A DNA stretch of 64,000 bases from positions 1 to 64,000 of the forward strand of contig CAIXUZ010000020.1 in NCBI GenBank assembly GCA_903922735.1. The letters run 5' to 3'. Shown here one piece after another: positions 1,776 to 58,559 of the stretch (the stretch's first letter is position 1; each line of letters starts with the position of its first letter). Source of the stretch: an uncultured Verrucomicrobia subdivision 3 bacterium (lineage in GTDB: Bacteria > Verrucomicrobiota > Verrucomicrobiia > Limisphaerales > UBA11358). The notes beneath the pieces are model-generated. The model searched no databases and was not told where the DNA came from. It was given only the letters and a program-made list of their open reading frames with translations. A program made the position numbers and the translations under genes.

Positions 1776-2783
1776 TCAAGCCCCCGCCGCCGCTGTTCGC
1801 TCGATGATGGTCTTCAGGGGGGTGTTTGGGCGAAAGCCAACGGTTGCTTCGAGCTTGTCCACCAGGGGCTTTCGTCGGCGCATGTCGTCGAAGCCGGGCT
1901 CGTAGGCCTGGCTGTAGGGGACCAATTCGACGCTGGAGGTTGATCCCAGGATTTCGATCACCTTCGCGGCCAGGCCGCGGATGGAGATTTCTTCCGTGCT
2001 GCCGATGTTGAACACCTGGCCGCGGGCAGCCGGACAATTGGCCAGGCGCACGAGGGCCTCAACGGTGTCGCCCACGTAACAGAAGCAGCGCGTCTGCCGT
2101 CCGTCGCCATAGACCTTCAGGGGTTGGCCACTGCGGGCCGCCGCAATAAACCGTGGCAAGACCATGCCGTAGCGCCCGGTCTGCCGGGGGCCGACGGTGT
2201 TGAAGAAGCGCGCGATGACCACCGGCAAGGCCCGTTCCTTCGCGTAAGCCAGCGCCAGGAACTCGTCCATGAGCTTCGAGCAGGCGTAGCTCCAGCGCGC
2301 CTGGTGCGGCGGGCCGATCAAGAGGTCGTCCTCCTCATCGAACGCCTCCTTCCGGCTCTTCCCATAGACTTCAGAGGTCGAGGCCAGCAGCACCGGCACG
2401 CCACGAGGCGCCGCGGCTTCCAGCACCACCTCCGTCTCGTGCAGATTCGTTTGCAGCACATGGATCGGCGAGCGCACCACCAGGTCAACCCCGACCGCCG
2501 CCGCCAGGTGATACACCGTTTCGGCCTCCGCCACGAGGTGTGCCACCCCGGGACAGCCTGAAACCTTGGACTGAATCACCCGCAGCCGGGGATGCCCGCT
2601 CACCGCGCGCAGGTTCTCCAGGCTGCCGGTGGAAAGATCGTCCACCACCACCACGGATTTGCCGTCGGCCAGGAGCCGCTCGACCAGGTGGGAGCCGATG
2701 AAGCCGGCACCGCCGGTGACTAGGACGTGATGCGTGATGCGGGATTCGTGATGCGGGATTCGCGATGCGGGATTCGTGGTCAC
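1776..2783 (-). CDS. NAD-dependent epimerase/dehydratase (UDP-glucuronate decarboxylase-like)
   Basis: A 335-residue extended short-chain dehydrogenase. The Rossmann motif VLVTGGAGFIGSH is near residue 20, the substrate-site Ser region is STSEVYG, and the catalytic pair is in YACSK. RFFNTVGPRQTGRYGMVLPR fits UDP-xylose synthase or dTDP-sugar enzymes, so it probably makes a nucleotide sugar for surface glycans; the substrate is not certain. Translation must begin at the GTG at 2783-2781, because the next 20 codons contain no start. Those codons (RIPHHESRITHH) are read out of a 7-bp repeat array, so the N-terminal extension looks acquired. The GTG overlaps the stop of the upstream four-helix-bundle gene by 4 bp. 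Confidence 0.85.
   Translation of the reverse strand: MTTNPASRIPHHESRITHHVLVTGGAGFIGSHLVERLLADGKSVVVVDDLSTGSLENLRAVSGHPRLRVIQSKVSGCPGVAHLVAEAETVYHLAAAVGVDLVVRSPIHVLQTNLHETEVVLEAAAPRGVPVLLASTSEVYGKSRKEAFDEEDDLLIGPPHQARWSYACSKLMDEFLALAYAKERALPVVIARFFNTVGPRQTGRYGMVLPRFIAAARSGQPLKVYGDGRQTRCFCYVGDTVEALVRLANCPAARGQVFNIGSTEEISIRGLAAKVIEILGSTSSVELVPYSQAYEPGFDDMRRRKPLVDKLEATVGFRPNTPLKTIIERTAAAGA
2724..2779. repeat. Heptamer tandem array A (left end of cassette 1)
   Basis: Eight consecutive 7-mers of the form T(G/T)CG(T/G/C)GA run without interruption. The segment ACGTGATGCGTGATGCG at 2725-2741 is the exact reverse complement of 3290-3306, on the far side of the four-helix-bundle gene. The array is inside the epimerase reading frame and encodes its first residues. 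Confidence 0.85.
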
Positions 2784-3274
2784 GGGAGCGGGGGGTTTTG
2801 GAGCAGGGCTTTCAATTGTTCTTCATTTATGGGTTGCTCTGGATCAGCACCGTAAGCGGGACTTTCTTCTCGGAAGGTAACGCTGCGCTGGTCGGGGATC
2901 ATTGTGAGCAGGAGTCGAATGATTTGGGTCAGGAGGCGTATCCGGTGTTCTGCAACAGCCTCTCCCAGCACATGGCGTCCATTGTAATACCAGCCACGGC
3001 TTTCCCGAGCGGAGCCGAGAGCATACTCATAGAAGTGAGCGCGATCCCGGCCACCGCCACGGGAATACCCCTCAGAAATATTGGCGGCGATGGAGCCTAA
3101 AGCCCGGTAGAGCTGATCCGACACTTCCAGTGTGCGTTTGTCCCTCAGGAGCTTGGTGACATCGTGCCAGCCCAACTCGGACATGAAAAGAGCCAACCGG
3201 TATGCTTCCACTCTCCAGAGCACATCGCCGGTAATATCAGCCGGTACCGACTTAATCCATTCATCGTAGTTCAT
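2780..3274 (-). CDS. Four-helix-bundle protein (S23/IVP family), cassette 1
   Basis: A 164-residue, helix-rich protein of the four-helix-bundle family first noted in 23S rRNA intervening sequences and related to the Avd accessory protein of retroelements. The family core runs from the helix WRVEAYRLALFMSELGWHDV through SDQLYRALGSIAANISEGYS to FYEYALGSARESRGWY, followed by a long C-terminal helix and a 30-residue tail. Its cellular role is not known for stand-alone members. The gene lies between perfect 17-bp inverted repeats built of 7-bp units (2725-2741 and 3290-3306), with no reverse transcriptase or rRNA gene nearby, and appears to be the cargo of a small cassette. Confidence 0.8.
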   Translation of the reverse strand: MNYDEWIKSVPADITGDVLWRVEAYRLALFMSELGWHDVTKLLRDKRTLEVSDQLYRALGSIAANISEGYSRGGGRDRAHFYEYALGSARESRGWYYNGRHVLGEAVAEHRIRLLTQIIRLLLTMIPDQRSVTFREESPAYGADPEQPINEEQLKALLQNPPLP

Positions 3275-3284
3275 AATCCCACCA

Positions 3285-3312
3285 AATCACGCATCACGCA
3301 TCACGTTTCACA
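3285..3312. repeat. Heptamer tandem array B (right end of cassette 1)
   Basis: Four 7-mers: AATCACG, CATCACG, CATCACG, TTTCACA. The part at 3290-3306 is an exact inverted copy of 2725-2741. The amidase stop codon (3310-3308) lies inside this array, so the element abuts the end of that gene. Confidence 0.85.
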
Positions 3313-4462
3313 TCCCCCTGCACCGCTGCAACGCCTTCGCCACCACCTCTGCCATCCTCTGCCTGTAAGCCGGGTCGGCGATCCGCCTGGCTTCCAGCGG
3401 GTTTGAGAGGTATCCGCCCTCGATCAGGATTGCCGGGCGCTTCTGGCCGCGGAGCACGCCGAGGTAGCGGGCGCGGCGGACGCCACGATCGTGCCGGCCG
3501 TTGACCTGCAACAGGGAGCGATGCACCCAGGAGGCCACCAGGAGGTTCTCCGCGTCAAAGGCATTGTTCGGAAAGACCAGCGCCGGGTCGTCCTGGTAGC
3601 CACGGGTGATGCCGGAAGGCATGCCGGCCGGGGTCAGGCAGTAGGTTTCGAGGCCGGATTCACGGCTATTGGGGGCGGCAGAGTTGAAGTGGAGGCTGAG
3701 GAACAGGGCGGCTTTGTGTTCCTCAGCAAAGGCGATGCGGTTTGAAAGCGACAGGTGGACATCGTTGCTGCGGGTGAGGAAGACCTGCCAGCCGTTGGTG
3801 GCAAGCATTGCCCCGAGCCGGCGGGCCCAATCGAGCGTGAACTCGCGCTCGTAGCGGCTTCCCAGCACGCTCCGGGTTCCCGCATCGTCGCCGCCGTGCC
3901 CCGGATCAATGACAATAACCGGGTTGGTGCGGAAAGAGGCCATAGGCGCGCCGGTGAGCAGCGGCTGCAGGGTCTTCTTCAAATCCAGCGCGTGAACAAA
4001 CGGCTGCCCTTCGCTCATCTGGGGGGCGAACCCCAGCCAGACTTGCACGCCGTCCCAATGCGCGAGCTGCATGCCGATGCGGACAACGAACACCCCGTTG
4101 CTGGTGGTCAGGGCGTAGGCGGGCGAGGGGATCAGGCCCACCTGGCAGGGCGCGGAGAACCCGTTTGCCTTGCACCAGCGCTGGAGCGGCACCCAGGCTT
4201 CGGCGACTTCGTTGGTTGGCGCCGGCGGGGGGGCAGGCGCGGGCGCAGGGATGGGGGCTGACGGTGGCGGAGAGGGGGTCGGTGCGGGCGCGGGAGGAGC
4301 AGCCGGCACCGGGGCGGTGCCTACTGCCGTTTCGCTCTGCCAGTCCGGCACGCGCTCCCCTCGCCGTCGCGCGTCGGTGGCGCAACCCGCCAGCAGGAGA
4401 GCGAGCAGGAACAAGGCAGCGGCGGGCACCGACGCCAACCTTTTGCGGGGATCTAACACCAT
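3308..4462 (-). CDS. N-acetylmuramoyl-L-alanine amidase (Amidase_3), lipoprotein
   Basis: A 384-residue zinc amidase that would cut the amide bond between MurNAc and the stem peptide of peptidoglycan. The N-terminus is a lipoprotein signal ending LLALLLAGC, followed by a proline/alanine-rich linker of about 35 residues, a middle domain, and the catalytic domain from residue about 195. Zinc and catalytic residues are visible in VIDPGHGG, RYEREF, FLSLHFN and ILIEGGYLSN. The length is typical of lipid-anchored AmiC-like enzymes. The gene stands alone on the minus strand; its stop lies in the heptamer array that borders cassette 1. Confidence 0.9.
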   Translation of the reverse strand: MVLDPRKRLASVPAAALFLLALLLAGCATDARRRGERVPDWQSETAVGTAPVPAAPPAPAPTPSPPPSAPIPAPAPAPPPAPTNEVAEAWVPLQRWCKANGFSAPCQVGLIPSPAYALTTSNGVFVVRIGMQLAHWDGVQVWLGFAPQMSEGQPFVHALDLKKTLQPLLTGAPMASFRTNPVIVIDPGHGGDDAGTRSVLGSRYEREFTLDWARRLGAMLATNGWQVFLTRSNDVHLSLSNRIAFAEEHKAALFLSLHFNSAAPNSRESGLETYCLTPAGMPSGITRGYQDDPALVFPNNAFDAENLLVASWVHRSLLQVNGRHDRGVRRARYLGVLRGQKRPAILIEGGYLSNPLEARRIADPAYRQRMAEVVAKALQRCRGM

Positions 4463-4595
4463 GCCATTTTGCGGAAGCGCGGGCGTGACTCAAGCTGATT
4501 CGATAACGCCCGCGCGCGCGTCTTGGATTCTTCCAAAACCACCACCACTGGGCAATGGGAGCCTTGTCCGCTCCCGGAGCGCAGTCAACCCCCAA

Positions 4596-4613
4596 GCGGA
4601 CAAGAATGTCCGC
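4596..4613. repeat. Small dispersed hairpin GCGGACA-AGAA-TGTCCGC
   Basis: A perfect 7-bp stem with an AGAA loop in the 422-bp intergenic region 4463-4884, which has no credible gene. The same core (GACAAGAATGTC) recurs at 13860-13879 and, inverted, at 13802-13821, so it belongs to a dispersed family. Confidence 0.65.
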
Positions 4614-4771
4614 GCTCCGAAAAATCGAAGGTGCGCACACCGCCGGCGCACGATCTCCGACAAGACCATCGCAAGCTCCATCGGTGCGGCATGGTGGCGC
4701 GGGATAGCGGAAATGTCACTCCTAACGGAGTTGGGCTTGGCGGACTACTGTCCTGCCGGATCGGGCCTCGG

Positions 4772-4820
4772 TTTTCGGATTTCCTTCGGGCTTCGGATTT
4801 CGGCTTTCGGATTTCCCTTC
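4772..4820. repeat. Heptamer array E upstream of ubiX
   Basis: Seven consecutive 7-mers, the most regular being TCGGATT, TCGGCTT, TCGGATT. It lies 65 bp upstream of the UbiX start, where promoter elements might be expected; none is clear. Confidence 0.6.
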
Positions 4821-4884
4821 CGGGGTTACGCTTGCCCATTGGGCGGAGCGCGGCCATAGTCTCCCCGAATCACGATTCGAACAT

Positions 4885-5454
4885 TTGTTGTCCTTGAGAT
4901 TACTTGTCGCCATTACCGGAGCCAGCGGCTCGCTGTACGCCCAGCGCCTGCTCGATAACCTCGACGCCGGGCAGCACGAGATTCGCGTGGTGCTCAGCCG
5001 TTATGCGCCGGTGGTGATCGCCGAGGAAATGCCGGGGGGGCTGCGACTGCCGCCCGGCGCCATCGAGCACAACCTCAAGAGCATGAACGCTCCCTTTGCC
5101 AGCGGCTCGAACGCGCCGGACGCGATGGTGATCATTCCGTGCAGCATGGGCACGCTGGGCCGGATCGCCCACGGCTACAGCGAGGATGTCCTGCTCCGAG
5201 CCGCCGACGTGGTGCTGAAGGAGAGGAAGAAGCTCATCCTCGTGCCCCGCGAGACGCCGCTGAACCTGATCCACGTGAAGAACTTCGAGCTTCTGATCCA
5301 GGCGGGGGCGACGATTCTTCCGGCCAATCCTTCCTTTTATACCCGCCCGCAGACGGTGGAGGCAGTGGTGGACACGGTGGTGGCGCGGGTGCTGGATCAC
5401 CTGGGGGTGGAGCATGAGCTGGCGGGACGGTGGAAGGAAGAGAGGGAAGTATGA
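4885..5454 (+). CDS. ubiX: UbiX-family flavin prenyltransferase
   Basis: A 189-residue protein that would attach a dimethylallyl group to FMN, making the prenyl-FMN cofactor of UbiD-type decarboxylases. Family motifs are seen in order: VAITGASGSLYAQRLL (flavin phosphate loop), IIPCSMGTLGRIAHG, ERKKLILVPRETPLN and PANPSFYTRP. The start is a TTG at 4885, with two further TTG codons just after; no ATG is available. A UbiA gene follows 590 bp on, separated by a four-helix-bundle cassette, so the pair probably serves quinone synthesis (in this phylum most likely menaquinone through the futalosine route). UbiD is not in the window. Confidence 0.9.
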   Translation: MLSLRLLVAITGASGSLYAQRLLDNLDAGQHEIRVVLSRYAPVVIAEEMPGGLRLPPGAIEHNLKSMNAPFASGSNAPDAMVIIPCSMGTLGRIAHGYSEDVLLRAADVVLKERKKLILVPRETPLNLIHVKNFELLIQAGATILPANPSFYTRPQTVEAVVDTVVARVLDHLGVEHELAGRWKEEREV

Positions 5455-5490
5455 AGTTTAAGAAGAAGGGGAAAGGAACAACTAAGAAGG

Positions 5491-5518
5491 AACAGGAAAC
5501 ATCCAACATCCAATATCG
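5491..5518. repeat. Heptamer array C (left end of cassette 2)
   Basis: Four 7-mers: AACAGGA, AACATCC, AACATCC, AATATCG. AACATCCAACATCCAA at 5498-5513 is the exact reverse complement of 6010-6025, across the four-helix-bundle gene. Confidence 0.8.
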
Positions 5519-5546
5519 GGTGGGGGAATTGACGGGGGAGGAGGCG

Positions 5547-5987
5547 GTGGGTGGGTGGGAGTTGCGGGATGAGGAAACTAGGAGGCGGAGGTTCGACCTT
5601 GAGGAACGGTTGTTGGAGTTTGCCTCAGTGGTGATTGATCTTTCGGAGAAGCTGCCGAACTCGCGAGCCGGGAACCACGTTGCCGGTCAGTTGCTGCGGT
5701 CCGGCACGTCTCTCTACCCGAACCATGGGGAGGCTGAGGAGGCGGAGTCACGTGATGATTTTATCCACAAGCTCAAGATATGCCTTAAGGAACTGCGCGA
5801 GACACGTCGCTGGGCACGCCTTATCAACCGCAAAGCCTGGGCAAAGAACGATGCGACGCTGGCTGTTGTTCTTGCCGAGGTTGATGAGTTAGTGCGTATT
5901 TTCTTCTCGAGCATTCAAACCGCCAGGCCGAATGCTCTAGCCGAAAAACATCGGTCCTCTAACTGTCGTCCCTCCACCACAAGCTAA
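5547..5987 (+). CDS. Four-helix-bundle protein (S23/IVP family), cassette 2
   Basis: A 146-residue member of the same family as the gene at 2780-3274 but clearly divergent. Core segments are RFDLEERLLEFASVVIDLSE, HVAGQLLRSGTSLYPNHGEA and DDFIHKLKICLKELRETRRW, matching the usual first, second and third helices. A longer frame starts at 5451 (ATG overlapping the ubiX stop), but it would translate the heptamer array. The GTG at 5547 has a strong purine-rich Shine-Dalgarno sequence (GGGGGAGGAGG) just upstream and begins immediately before the conserved part, so I prefer it. The gene is flanked by inverted heptamer arrays and splits what looks like a former ubiX-ubiA pair. Confidence 0.75.
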   Translation: MGGWELRDEETRRRRFDLEERLLEFASVVIDLSEKLPNSRAGNHVAGQLLRSGTSLYPNHGEAEEAESRDDFIHKLKICLKELRETRRWARLINRKAWAKNDATLAVVLAEVDELVRIFFSSIQTARPNALAEKHRSSNCRPSTTS

Positions 5988-6002: not shown

Positions 6003-6044
6003 TTCGATGTTGGATGTTGGATGTTCGATGTTGATCTTCAGATG
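6003..6044. repeat. Heptamer array D (right end of cassette 2)
   Basis: Six 7-mers: TTCGATG, TTGGATG, TTGGATG, TTCGATG, TTGATCT, TCAGATG. The part 6010-6025 is an exact inverted copy of 5498-5513. The last unit contains the probable ATG of ubiA (6042-6044), so the array reaches the start codon. Confidence 0.8.
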
Positions 6045-14885: not shown

Positions 14886-16546
14886 GGGATAGCCGATTGC
14901 CGATTGCCGATTGCCGATTGGGCAAGCGCCAGTGAGTTTTCTTTTTCAACGTCCGTGTTGACCAAAATCAGGACGGAATCCTTGCCTTCCGCCGATTCAC
15001 GGAGCAGGGCATAGACCGGCGCGTCAGGCGCGCTCAGGCGAGTGAGTTTCGCACCGTCAAAAAAACAGGGATGGTCGGAGATGAGCCGGTTCAACCGACC
15101 GAGTTCGGGGACGAGGTTATCGGTGCTGTCCCAGTTTAGGCCGGTGTTGCCGTGGACGCGGATTTTTTCCGCTGCCAGCCATTCCACGCCGCAGGTAAAG
15201 CCGAAGCCGCCGCCAGGACTGGTCAGCGCGCAAAGGCGGTTTCGCAGCAGGGACCACGCGCGGCCTTTGTCGGCGAGCCGGCTGTTGTCGTGGGTTTCAC
15301 TGTAATGGACATAGCTGCCGATGCGTTCATTCTGGCGGTTGGCATAATCGAGATACCACGCGACGTCCTGGCCGGAATAATTTTGAAACAGCTCGGAGTA
15401 AGCCCACTGCATGCCGCCCTCGGTAAGCAGACTTTCCGTGGCTTCCCACGAGCCACCGAGGCCTTCAAGCAGAAAAATTGTTTCCGAAAATTCGTCCTGC
15501 ACGCGGGCAACGATGTATTGCCAGGCGGGAGTGGGGATTTTATAACCGGCGTCACAGCGAAATCCATCCACGCCCCGGCGGCACCAGACGAGCAGCGAAT
15601 CGGCGACGAGATCCCAGAGTTTCACGTCGTGCTGTTCGAGCTCGACGAGGTCTTCCCAAACGGTACCCCATGCGCCGGGACTGGCAAAATCGCCGTCAGT
15701 TTTCTTTAGGAAAAATTCAGGGTGATTTTCCTGCAAGGTTGAACCCCAGCCGGTGTGGTTGATGACGATGTCGATGAACACCCGCGCGCCGAGCGAATGC
15801 GCTGTCTGGGTGAGTTCGCAAAACTGGTCGATGCCGGTAGTGCGTTTATCAAACTCGACTAGGGCGGGATCGACCGCCGTCAAATCCAGCGCGGCGTAAG
15901 GGCTGCCGAATCGTCCGAACCGTGCGTAGGTCGTGGGCGTGGGATGCACGGGCAGCAAATGAATGATGCGGCAGCCAAGCCGGTTGACGATGTGCGGCAA
16001 CTGGTGCGTGAGATCGCGGAATTTTCCGGATGGCGGCAGCGTGGCGTAGCCTTGGGATTCAAGGGATTTTAATTCGGCCTCGAGTTTGGCGTTGGCAGTG
16101 GATGCCAGATTTTTGGTTGGACCGAGAAGCCGGGTGAAGGCGCAGTAAATGGTGTTGGCGGTGCGGGAAAAGTCCGGATGAACGCAAATGCCCACGTCGG
16201 AACCAGCCGGCCAATGCTGCCAGTTTTTTTCGTCGAGCAGATAGGCTTTGGCCTTGAAATAGCCGACCTCGGCGAGCGGGAGTTCGATTTGCCAGCCGTC
16301 GGCGGTGGGCTGCATGGGCAGGTCGCGCCAGGAAGCGCCGGCGGCGGTAGCGCCCCCGGCGTGGGCGGCGATGATTTCGCGGCGTCGGAGGGCGGCGCGG
16401 CCGAGATTGGTGCGGAGACGCGCCGACTGCCTGGCGCGGACGGCGGATTTTTTTTCGTCGCGCAGCGTGAAAATAATTTTGTCCCCGACAAAACGCAGCA
16501 GGCGTTCGCCGGTGGCGGGGGTCATGGTTGGCGCGGGTGCGTCCAC
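14738..16546 (-). CDS. GH13 alpha-amylase-family protein, C-terminally truncated
   Basis: A 602-codon frame. Residues 1-80 form a beta domain; the (beta/alpha)8 barrel follows with conserved regions DIVINHTG, GVDGFRCDAGYK (nucleophile Asp), FLLEGLGG (acid/base Glu) and YSETHDNSR (transition-state Asp). It should act on alpha-glucans such as glycogen. From about residue 543 the frame enters a perfect 7-bp repeat (SAIGNRQSAI) and then runs in a wrong frame over the neighbouring ORF, so about 60 residues are not native. Related verrucomicrobial proteins are, to my recollection, often longer with a glycosyltransferase part; that part is absent here. Confidence 0.85.
   Translation of the reverse strand: MDAPAPTMTPATGERLLRFVGDKIIFTLRDEKKSAVRARQSARLRTNLGRAALRRREIIAAHAGGATAAGASWRDLPMQPTADGWQIELPLAEVGYFKAKAYLLDEKNWQHWPAGSDVGICVHPDFSRTANTIYCAFTRLLGPTKNLASTANAKLEAELKSLESQGYATLPPSGKFRDLTHQLPHIVNRLGCRIIHLLPVHPTPTTYARFGRFGSPYAALDLTAVDPALVEFDKRTTGIDQFCELTQTAHSLGARVFIDIVINHTGWGSTLQENHPEFFLKKTDGDFASPGAWGTVWEDLVELEQHDVKLWDLVADSLLVWCRRGVDGFRCDAGYKIPTPAWQYIVARVQDEFSETIFLLEGLGGSWEATESLLTEGGMQWAYSELFQNYSGQDVAWYLDYANRQNERIGSYVHYSETHDNSRLADKGRAWSLLRNRLCALTSPGGGFGFTCGVEWLAAEKIRVHGNTGLNWDSTDNLVPELGRLNRLISDHPCFFDGAKLTRLSAPDAPVYALLRESAEGKDSVLILVNTDVEKENSLALAQSAIGNRQSAIPCKPNPTSSPPPTPTRTKPPSAPTYILTAGKPAAKSPPPSAGPSERFGM
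14893..14920. repeat. Heptamer array F: four perfect CCGATTG units
   Basis: Four identical CCGATTG units end to end. They lie exactly where the GH13 coding sequence loses similarity to its family and 8 bp from the start of the small HTH-like ORF, marking the right side of the junction region. Confidence 0.9.
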
Positions 16547-37156: not shown

Positions 37157-37277
37157 TTCCGCTCGGGAACAATGATGTTCCGCTTGGGAACAATGATGTT
37201 CCGCTCGGGAACAATGATGTTCCGCTCGGGAACAATGATGTTCCGCTCGGGAACAATGATGTTCCGCTCGGGAACCA
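37157..37277. repeat. Array of five 21-bp palindromic tandem repeats
   Basis: Five full units of TTCCGCTCGGGAACAATGATG (the second has one change, C to T) and a partial sixth from 37262. Each junction can pair two ways: GGAAC-N6-GTTCC and TTCC-N5-GGAA. There are no unique spacers, so it is not CRISPR. Because 21 is a multiple of three, the array stays open in most frames (peptides NDVPLGN, VPERNII and others). The 647-bp gap 36880-37526 holds only this array and the terminator at 36954. Confidence 0.9.
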
Positions 37278-58040: not shown

Positions 58041-58309
58041 GGGTCAACGCTAGCAACTGAAGGGGAAACTGTCGAGAACGCAGGAAATTCTTAAAAGTGG
58101 CAAACGTCAATTGCCCGTGCAATCTATCCTATTGGTTGTAGCGGTGGTTTGTGAACGCCGTTTTTTGACCTCAGTCGCGCGAAGGGTGCAAGAAAAAATG
58201 AGGAACTTTGCAGCTTATCTCCTTAGGAGGCGTATAGCGTATCACTAAAACCATAAACCCGACGCCTTGCGCGTCTAAATCATGGACAAAACATCCTTTG
58301 GAAGCCCTC

Positions 58310-58418
58310 CGCAATCCCAGCGGGTGGCAAAACAACGTTTTTTTGGTCACCGCAATCCCAGCGGATGGCAAAACAACGTTTTTTTGGTCATCGCAATCCC
58401 AGCGGATGGCAAAATAAG
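58310..58418. repeat. 41-bp tandem repeat, about 2.7 copies
   Basis: Units begin with CGCAATCCCAGCGG at 58310, 58351 and 58392 and each of the first two carries a run of seven T after AACAACG. Copies differ at few positions. They lie in the 519-bp gap between the epimerase and the TPR gene (58041-58559), which has no convincing gene. Spacing is not that of CRISPR. Confidence 0.85.
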
Positions 58419-58559
58419 CCTCCCCAGGCATCCGCAAAACCGGCGGACATCATCGGAAGTTTCGGATGCCATCTTTAATAAAATCACTCATCCGCCTCTT
58501 AACAGCGAGGTCGCCGGCTGATTTTGCAGGCTGTTTCCTTGTTTGTAATTCTTTATAAT

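Follow-up and report, generated by a model that had tools for sequence, protein, structure and literature searches.

S23-family genes between inverted heptamer arrays: a candidate class of mobile elements in Verrucomicrobiota and other bacteria

How does a small gene come to lie between two mutually inverted arrays of 7-bp repeats, packed tightly between two protein-coding genes, when no known recombinase is encoded with it? The question is raised by cassette 1 in the window, the whole 64,000-nucleotide stretch analyzed here (positions 1 to 64,000 of contig CAIXUZ010000020.1, assembly GCA_903922735.1, from an uncultured Verrucomicrobia subdivision 3 bacterium). Its gene, S23a (2780..3274, minus strand), belongs to the S23/IVP family, and we think it rather probable that cassette 1 is a member of a widespread class of mobile elements in which the S23 protein, as a pentamer, recognizes about five cores at a 7-nt spacing. 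The S23a product (164 amino acids) matches PF05635 (E = 2.3e-13; 50.7 bits, curated cut-off 33.8) and TIGR02436, “four helix bundle protein” (E = 7.8e-16; 58.3 bits, curated cut-off 24), and one search returned 5140 homologues at E ≤ 1e-3. PF05635 was its sole Pfam match, no known recombinase is encoded between the cassette ends, and a plus-strand open reading frame (ORF) overlapping S23a (2765-3100) matched no Pfam family.

The anatomy of the cassette can be read directly from the DNA and agrees with an earlier note on this locus, which placed the S23 gene between ACGTGATGCGTGATGCG (2725-2741) and its exact inverse (3290-3306) and described both arms as 7-bp tandem units. The 3′ arm, downstream of S23a (2725..2778, plus strand), is an inverted array of 7.6 units with GTGATGC and GGGATTC variants; the 5′ arm, upstream in the sense of the gene (3285..3306, minus strand), consists of GTGATGC heptamers, with 2.9 exact units at 3286-3305. 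Together, the ends form an inverted pair of 22 nt that is 95% complementary. The arm score of 19.5 is beyond chance, given that swapped arms, that is, arms exchanged between cassettes, reached 18 or more in 0.4% of cases. The cassette limits also fall where the same note had put them, at the first residues of an epimerase and at the stop codon of an amidase. The downstream gene, encoding an NAD-dependent epimerase (PF01370; 1776..2783, minus strand), starts with GTG at 2783 and takes its first codons from the 3′ arm (MTTNPASRIPHHESRITH, then HVLVTGGAGFIG), so that this arm encodes the present epimerase N-terminus. On the other side, 1 bp separates the end of the 5′ arm from the stop codon of the upstream gene for N-acetylmuramoyl-L-alanine amidase (PF01520; 3308..4462, minus strand). 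Amidase, S23a, and epimerase all have the same orientation.

Arms of this kind are general around S23 genes. The genome of origin encodes eight PF05635 matches; by a simple period-7 score, arrays were found on both sides of five, on one side of two, and on neither side of one (L008, which is below the Pfam cut-off). The family is present in 35 of 40 genomes (this one and 39 relatives). Arm scores of at least 14 were obtained for 59 of the 82 S23 domains in this genome set for which both flanks measured at least 200 bp (out of 87 distinct domains, from best loci and places hand-picked among the matches listed, with stronger matches taken first, so that weaker matches are under-sampled), compared with 1.5% of swapped arms. 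In named genomes, 68 of 78 loci reached this score, compared with 2.2% of swapped arms; these 78 come from the best 80 of at least 589 loci in a scan with a five-sequence alignment. At a score of at least 12, the counts rise to 69 of 82 and 72 of 78, against about 5% of swapped arms, in line with the expectation of the earlier note that S23 genes other than S23a would be flanked by inverted heptamers. The heptamer itself differs between unrelated cassettes: in the genome of origin and its relatives, arms within one cassette match with a median of 16 and arms across cassettes with a median of 9. The named loci belong, according to their record titles, to Verrucomicrobiota, Planctomycetota, Bacteroidota, Acidobacteriota, Gammaproteobacteria, and other groups; they include two Xanthomonas loci (L226 and L253) with GGGAATC-type arms.

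An undemanding explanation would be that the arms are ordinary microsatellites, next to S23 genes by coincidence, and heptamer tandem repeats are indeed over-represented in many bacteria, according to the available part of PMC4692102. Around the 87 S23 domains, however, the density of period-7 arrays is 3.01 per kb in the first 150 bp, as against 0.14-0.19 per kb at distances of 0.5-5.5 kb; for the two genome sets together, the range is 3.0-3.1 per kb close to the gene (up to 150 bp) and 0.10-0.21 per kb farther out than 500 bp. Among the other periods compared, 5, 6, 9-13, and 15 are near flat and 8 is mildly raised. Genes of another small family in the same genome set, ParE, had no period-7 array within 300 bp, and 0 of 24 (of 30 loci, 24 were used) had arms at a score of 14 or even 12. 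Arms match within and not between cassettes, and array length is peaked. We consider the microsatellite explanation extremely unlikely; chance and plain microsatellites were rejected on the swapped arms, the other periods, and the ParE control.

Are such cassettes inserted into preexisting operons? To the earlier note, cassette 1 looked like an insertion into a short gap between two older genes, and proposed a search of related genomes for the gap with and without the insert and for empty sites with a single array. The amidase was found in all 49 genomes of the genus (the genome of origin included); 30 loci were fetched, among which both the amidase-epimerase gene order and that of the UbiX-like and UbiA genes described below are conserved. 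The 28 readable amidase-epimerase gaps (own locus included) are of several kinds. In 17, the distance from the amidase stop to the position aligned with residue 19 of the epimerase is exactly 11 bp, consistent with overlapping stop and start codons (ATGA in 16, GTGA in 1), and in one it is 7 bp. Three gaps hold an S23 cassette (our genome, G015, and G005), three (L082, L089, and L104, the last being weak) contain either a single heptamer array or a short scar resembling one, one holds gene-less inverted arms of ~8-bp units (L106), and three hold another short sequence. At this junction and the two others considered here, such single arrays, scars, and pairs without a gene were read by eye. The S23 proteins in the gap all differ: those of G015 and G005 share 45% identity, and BLASTP shows no significant similarity of either to S23a. 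The 17 bare and 3 filled sites support insertion between older genes, the cassette is not at the same place in all relatives, and sites with a single array or scar do exist.

The UbiX-UbiA junction, readable in 21 of the 30 amidase loci, shows the same variety, with eight S23 cassettes of two kinds, four bare overlaps, two gene-less inverted heptamer pairs (L089 and L091), one gene-less pair with longer units, and six other arrangements. A different insert of ~450 bp, with no S23 match, is present between UbiX and UbiA in L087, L088, and L095. The third junction was found through S23a itself, a homologue of which (E ≤ 1e-15) is present in two of the 49 genus genomes, our own and G001. The G001 homologue is 70% identical to S23a and lies between two MacB-like permease genes, with GTGATGC arms beginning at the permease stop. 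The second permease was found in 29 of 30 loci, and in 25 of these 29 readable loci the junction has no insert over ~45 bp; the inserts observed are an inverted pair without a gene, built of 8-bp units (L425), a pair of the GxxExxY type discussed below (L428), and another insert (L404). The amidase-epimerase gap of G001 holds only a single array, of a heptamer different from GTGATGC. The cassette-1 family therefore occupies two places, each of which is bare in most readable relatives. As a separate observation, L404, L408, and L412 encode a further S23 gene beyond the first MacB-like permease, where the operon may have one more insertion site.

Besides cassettes, inverted pairs without a gene were identified, and many of these match the cassettes resident in the same genome. 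A 1.2-Mb stretch of G001 contains 99 period-7 arrays (score ≥ 13) compared with 0-13 for periods 5, 6, and 8-12, and all seven S23 genes in this stretch have arms scoring at least 14.5. In the same 1.2 Mb, 44 of 114 arrays (score ≥ 12) have an inverted partner (≥ 12) within 290 bp, close S23 cassette arms included, whereas foreign arrays at the same places found a partner in 25 of 883 cases. From the array table, 26 gene-less pairs with loops of mostly 11-50 bp were taken by hand and compared with nine resident arms, drawn from the 14 S23 matches of G001 (L017, below threshold, and the remaining matches were not included), and with equal-sized foreign sets drawn from 63 foreign cassettes. Fourteen of the 26 match a resident S23 arm better than at least 95% of the foreign sets, one of them with a weak score of 9.5; the mean is 16.4 for resident arms and 10.5 for foreign sets. 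In the genome of origin, the heptamer pattern of the second S23 gene of the window, S23b, has 55 + 68 = 123 overlapping matches (several per array), and the reversed control has 0.

The orientation of the cassettes bears on what they do in the cell. Among 133 cassettes with arms scoring at least 13, 108 had readable neighbors on both sides (by simple longest-ORF calling): 78 lie in sense between same-strand genes, 6 are antisense, and 24 have opposite-strand flanks, against a background of 190 same-strand neighbors in 295. In 73 of 96 cassettes, the start of the arm lies between -14 and +16 bp relative to the stop codon of the co-directional gene upstream. Both the sense bias and the position at stop codons would suit an RNA regulatory or processing element, such that S23 binds the arms in the operon mRNA or the panhandle formed by the arms is cut by RNase III, with spread through ordinary recombination. 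A precedent for protein recognition of short repeats is TRAP, which binds repeated triplets. Further in favor of an RNA role, the arms of cassette 1 are predicted to pair as a terminal stem in its RNA (z = -3.3), and the 23S rRNA intervening sequence of Coxiella, as described in the available part of PMC4990558, has GACAGAT heptamers, variable in number among strains, before its S23 ORF and a 28-bp terminal stem, with cleavage by RNase III. An RNA role alone, however, leaves unexplained why gene-less pairs matching resident cassettes are scattered through a genome and why one cassette family occurs at two places, and the sense bias is equally expected for a mobile gene that has no promoter of its own. 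We regard this explanation as the main rival, although rather improbable; an RNA role and mobility could both hold.

Two further explanations assign movement to a known enzyme acting in trans. The sense orientation within operons would also be compatible with a retro-element moved by a reverse transcriptase, with S23 acting like Avd of diversity-generating retroelements; S23 and Avd are related pentameric four-helix bundles. The reverse transcriptase family RVT_1 was nevertheless matched in only 16 of the 40 genomes (our own included) and not in the other 24, among which are the S23-rich genomes G001 (14 S23 matches, 97% complete), G005 (11), G026 (11), and G024 (10), which makes this route very unlikely indeed. 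None was found near cassette 1, the single RVT_1 match of the genome being on contig C38 and the window on C20. Alternatively, a RAYT-type Y1 (HUH) transposase could mobilize the arms, with S23 as a passenger, and Y1_Tnp matches are present in 36 of 40 genomes, including our own. Yet the 24 Y1 genes compared have no period-7 array within 1 kb and are accompanied instead by other, palindromic inverted repeats; G007 and G016 have S23 matches without a Y1 match (in assemblies 91% and 73% complete); and the gene-less heptamers match resident S23 arms. We consider this scenario very unlikely. The comparison was limited to loci with whole flanks (32 of 37 for S23, 21 of 30 for GxxExxY, and 24 of 30 for Y1). 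The inverted palindromic repeats of the Y1 genes (L138-L167), many containing TAGCCC, are as expected of RAYTs.

For the mobile-element interpretation, the S23 protein is the natural candidate agent. The ratio of nonsynonymous to synonymous substitution rates (dN/dS) is 0.05-0.10 in 8 of 10 hand-picked orthologous pairs, those for which dS could be estimated, and the corresponding ratio of proportions (pN/pS) in the other two is 0.08 and 0.15, indicating that the protein is maintained by selection. Array length peaks at 29-31 bp, with 4-5 units in 88 of 99 G001 arrays and 38 of 59 arrays at named S23 genes; 31 bases have room for five cores of 3 nt at intervals of 7 nt, and the solved S23 relatives 2gsc and 2rld list five chains each. 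The upstream arm is C-poor (12.5% C), and 95 of 133 arms (those of period 7 and equal length) yielded a weak common logo, TTSARNN (T, T, G/C, A, G/A), that scored above 30 of 30 shuffles.

The unit of the proposed element is an S23 gene flanked by a pair of inverted arms, each of ~30 bp made of 7-bp (sometimes 8-bp) tandem units, and the same genomes carry gene-less derivatives, two arms around a loop of mostly 11-50 bp. We propose that S23 forms a homopentamer and that its five subunits read five short cores 7 nt apart on one arm, recognizing the arm in a single-stranded or hairpin form of the DNA (or RNA). The bound hairpin might then be moved to a new site by replication or by host enzymes, which would cut and join. 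Insertions would persist mostly at stop/start junctions inside operons and in sense orientation, where an S23 gene presumably lacking its own promoter could be co-transcribed and the next gene could take its start from the arm. S23 is proposed as the agent because it is the gene inside: the agent would have to recognize the heptamer particular to each cassette, act on inverted pairs whether or not they enclose a gene, and be under selection. Replication or host enzymes are invoked because neither a reverse transcriptase nor a Y1 transposase is a constant partner.

Several observations weigh against this proposal. No transposition event was observed, the comparison being one of sequences, and at the three operon junctions the arrays are too variable to fix the ends, so that a target duplication is not readable. 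To our knowledge, S23 has no enzymatic motif, and the structure model of S23a (predicted local distance difference test score, 56) was too uncertain to be used. Twelve of the 26 gene-less pairs in G001 could not be assigned to the nine resident arms. In the genome of origin, GTGATGC occurs in cassette 1 and in one further array, so that the cassette-1 family is not spreading there; compared with the 123 pattern matches of S23b, it is rare and the S23b family abundant. In G035, where no S23 was found, 334 kb still contain seven period-7 arrays, almost all of which share one heptamer. This corresponds to 21 arrays per Mb versus 83 per Mb in G001, and G011 has 36.5 kb without any period-7 array; the contrast between S23-bearing and S23-less genomes is thin, resting on G035 (334 kb) and G011 (36.5 kb). 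The orientation set includes orthologous cassettes, such that the 78 sense and 6 antisense cases are not independent events, and the score threshold, which drops arrays shorter than ~20 bp, partly shapes the peak of arm length. Co-variation of arms among hand-picked orthologous cassettes is weak (18.7 for own and 16.8 for crossed arms). Finally, the assembly is estimated to be 5.6% contaminated. The small mobile unit without a known transposase that the earlier note envisaged is, accordingly, supported in its layout, presence/absence pattern, and generality, while S23 as the driver of movement stays at the level of a proposal.

The window contains a second cassette of the same design ~2.3 kb from cassette 1, with its own heptamer, AACATCC. 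S23b has a listed ORF at 5430..5987 (plus strand) with the S23 domain at ~5607-5897; its true start is probably inside this ORF, after the upstream AACATCC arm at 5498..5518 (plus strand). The inverted downstream arm, GGATGTT/CGATGTT (6003..6032, minus strand; the first coordinate being approximate), contains the ATG of the UbiA prenyltransferase ORF (PF01040; 6021..6938, plus strand), and the upstream neighbor is a UbiX-like flavoprotein gene (PF02441; 4885..5454, plus strand). In the same assembly, at G000:C60:182747-184862 (L007), a second amidase, 52% identical to that of the window, is encoded near an S23b-like gene (domain 84% identical), an arrangement that corresponds to window 3308-5987; given the estimated contamination, either the contig holding the amidase and S23b of the window or that of L007 may come from another organism. 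Other repeats in the window are a single array of a TTCGGAT-type heptamer between the amidase and UbiX genes (4761-4815), a GATTGCC array of 4.7 units away from both S23 genes (14888-14920), the heptamer of which also flanks an S23 gene in G001 (C9:296766), and tandem repeats of 21 bp (37157-37275; 5.7 copies, 97% match) and 41 bp (58308-58437).

A comparable architecture was found around another gene family. GxxExxY genes (PF13366, PDDEXK_3) in the same genomes have cassette-specific inverted arms scoring at least 14 in 19 of 21 cases, against a null of 5.2%. These arms differ from those of S23 in their units of ~9-11 bp, often starting with TTAACC, and in the protein family encoded, and the GxxExxY cassettes look like a second, parallel element class. 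GxxExxY-like gene-less pairs were seen by eye in L086 and L428 (the GxxExxY loci themselves are L108-L137).

A broader reading, which we offer tentatively and would not quite call probable, is that S23 four-helix-bundle pentamers read arrays of cores 7 nt apart in a sequence-specific way and move a whole superfamily of mobile elements that has no known recombinase. The rRNA intervening sequences would then be the lineage that inserted into 23S genes, and the excess heptamer repeats of bacteria would be the debris of the superfamily; GxxExxY genes, with units of 9-11 bp, would form a second superfamily in parallel. Regardless, a very common protein family of unknown function is placed in a concrete setting, with a ligand that can be tested, and one candidate cause emerges for the heptamer repeats reported in several papers with no protein partner. 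Because the heptamer differs between unrelated cassettes, a readable protein-to-repeat code is suggested. If the proposal is correct, there is a class of mobile elements whose sole protein is no known recombinase, and the riddle of the 23S rRNA intervening sequences would find its place within a larger family.

Among known systems, heptamer tandem repeats without a partner protein have been described in Xanthomonas (GGGAATC; PMC4692102), Beggiatoaceae (TAACTGA; PMC4679880), and Geobacter metallireducens (PMC2700814). In the available parts of these papers, the repeats resemble the arms in their 7-bp units, often in 4-5 copies and partly in inverted pairs, and are discussed as G-quadruplexes, in post-transcriptional regulation, or as regulator binding sites; the word S23 is absent from the main texts of all three. 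The intervening sequences in 23S rRNA genes of Coxiella, Leptospira, and others are closer, combining an S23 ORF with terminal inverted repeats and, in Coxiella, upstream heptamers. The part of PMC4990558 available here cites earlier ideas that they are transposition remnants or mobile elements and makes no link between free-standing S23 genes and heptamer arms; no such link was found in the open-licence PMC papers searched, a set that does not extend to subscription papers and preprints. Cassette 1 shares with intervening sequences the complementary ends around an S23 ORF, predicted to pair as a stem, but it does not lie in a 23S rRNA gene: an Rfam scan of the window returned two tRNAs only, and the flanks are protein genes. 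In general, S23 cassettes differ from intervening sequences in lying between protein genes, in their many copies with different heptamers, and in the associated gene-less pairs.

The closest parallel is the REPIN/RAYT system, in which a resident gene for TnpA-REP, a Y1 HUH transposase, is flanked by inverted repeats and accompanied by scattered gene-less pairs. The S23 class likewise combines a resident gene within inverted repeats with gene-less inverted pairs of the same repeat in the same genome, as found for 14 of 26 pairs in G001 and for the S23b heptamer; for cassette 1 itself no such pairs were seen in the genome of origin, which has a single further array of its heptamer. The two systems differ in the protein, HUH there and S23 (PF05635), without a Y1 HUH domain, here, and in the repeats, palindromic repetitive extragenic sequences (REPs) there and tandem 7-bp arrays here. 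As both protein and repeat type differ, we rate the S23 cassettes as a new class alongside REPIN/RAYT, which a stricter reader could call a new variant.

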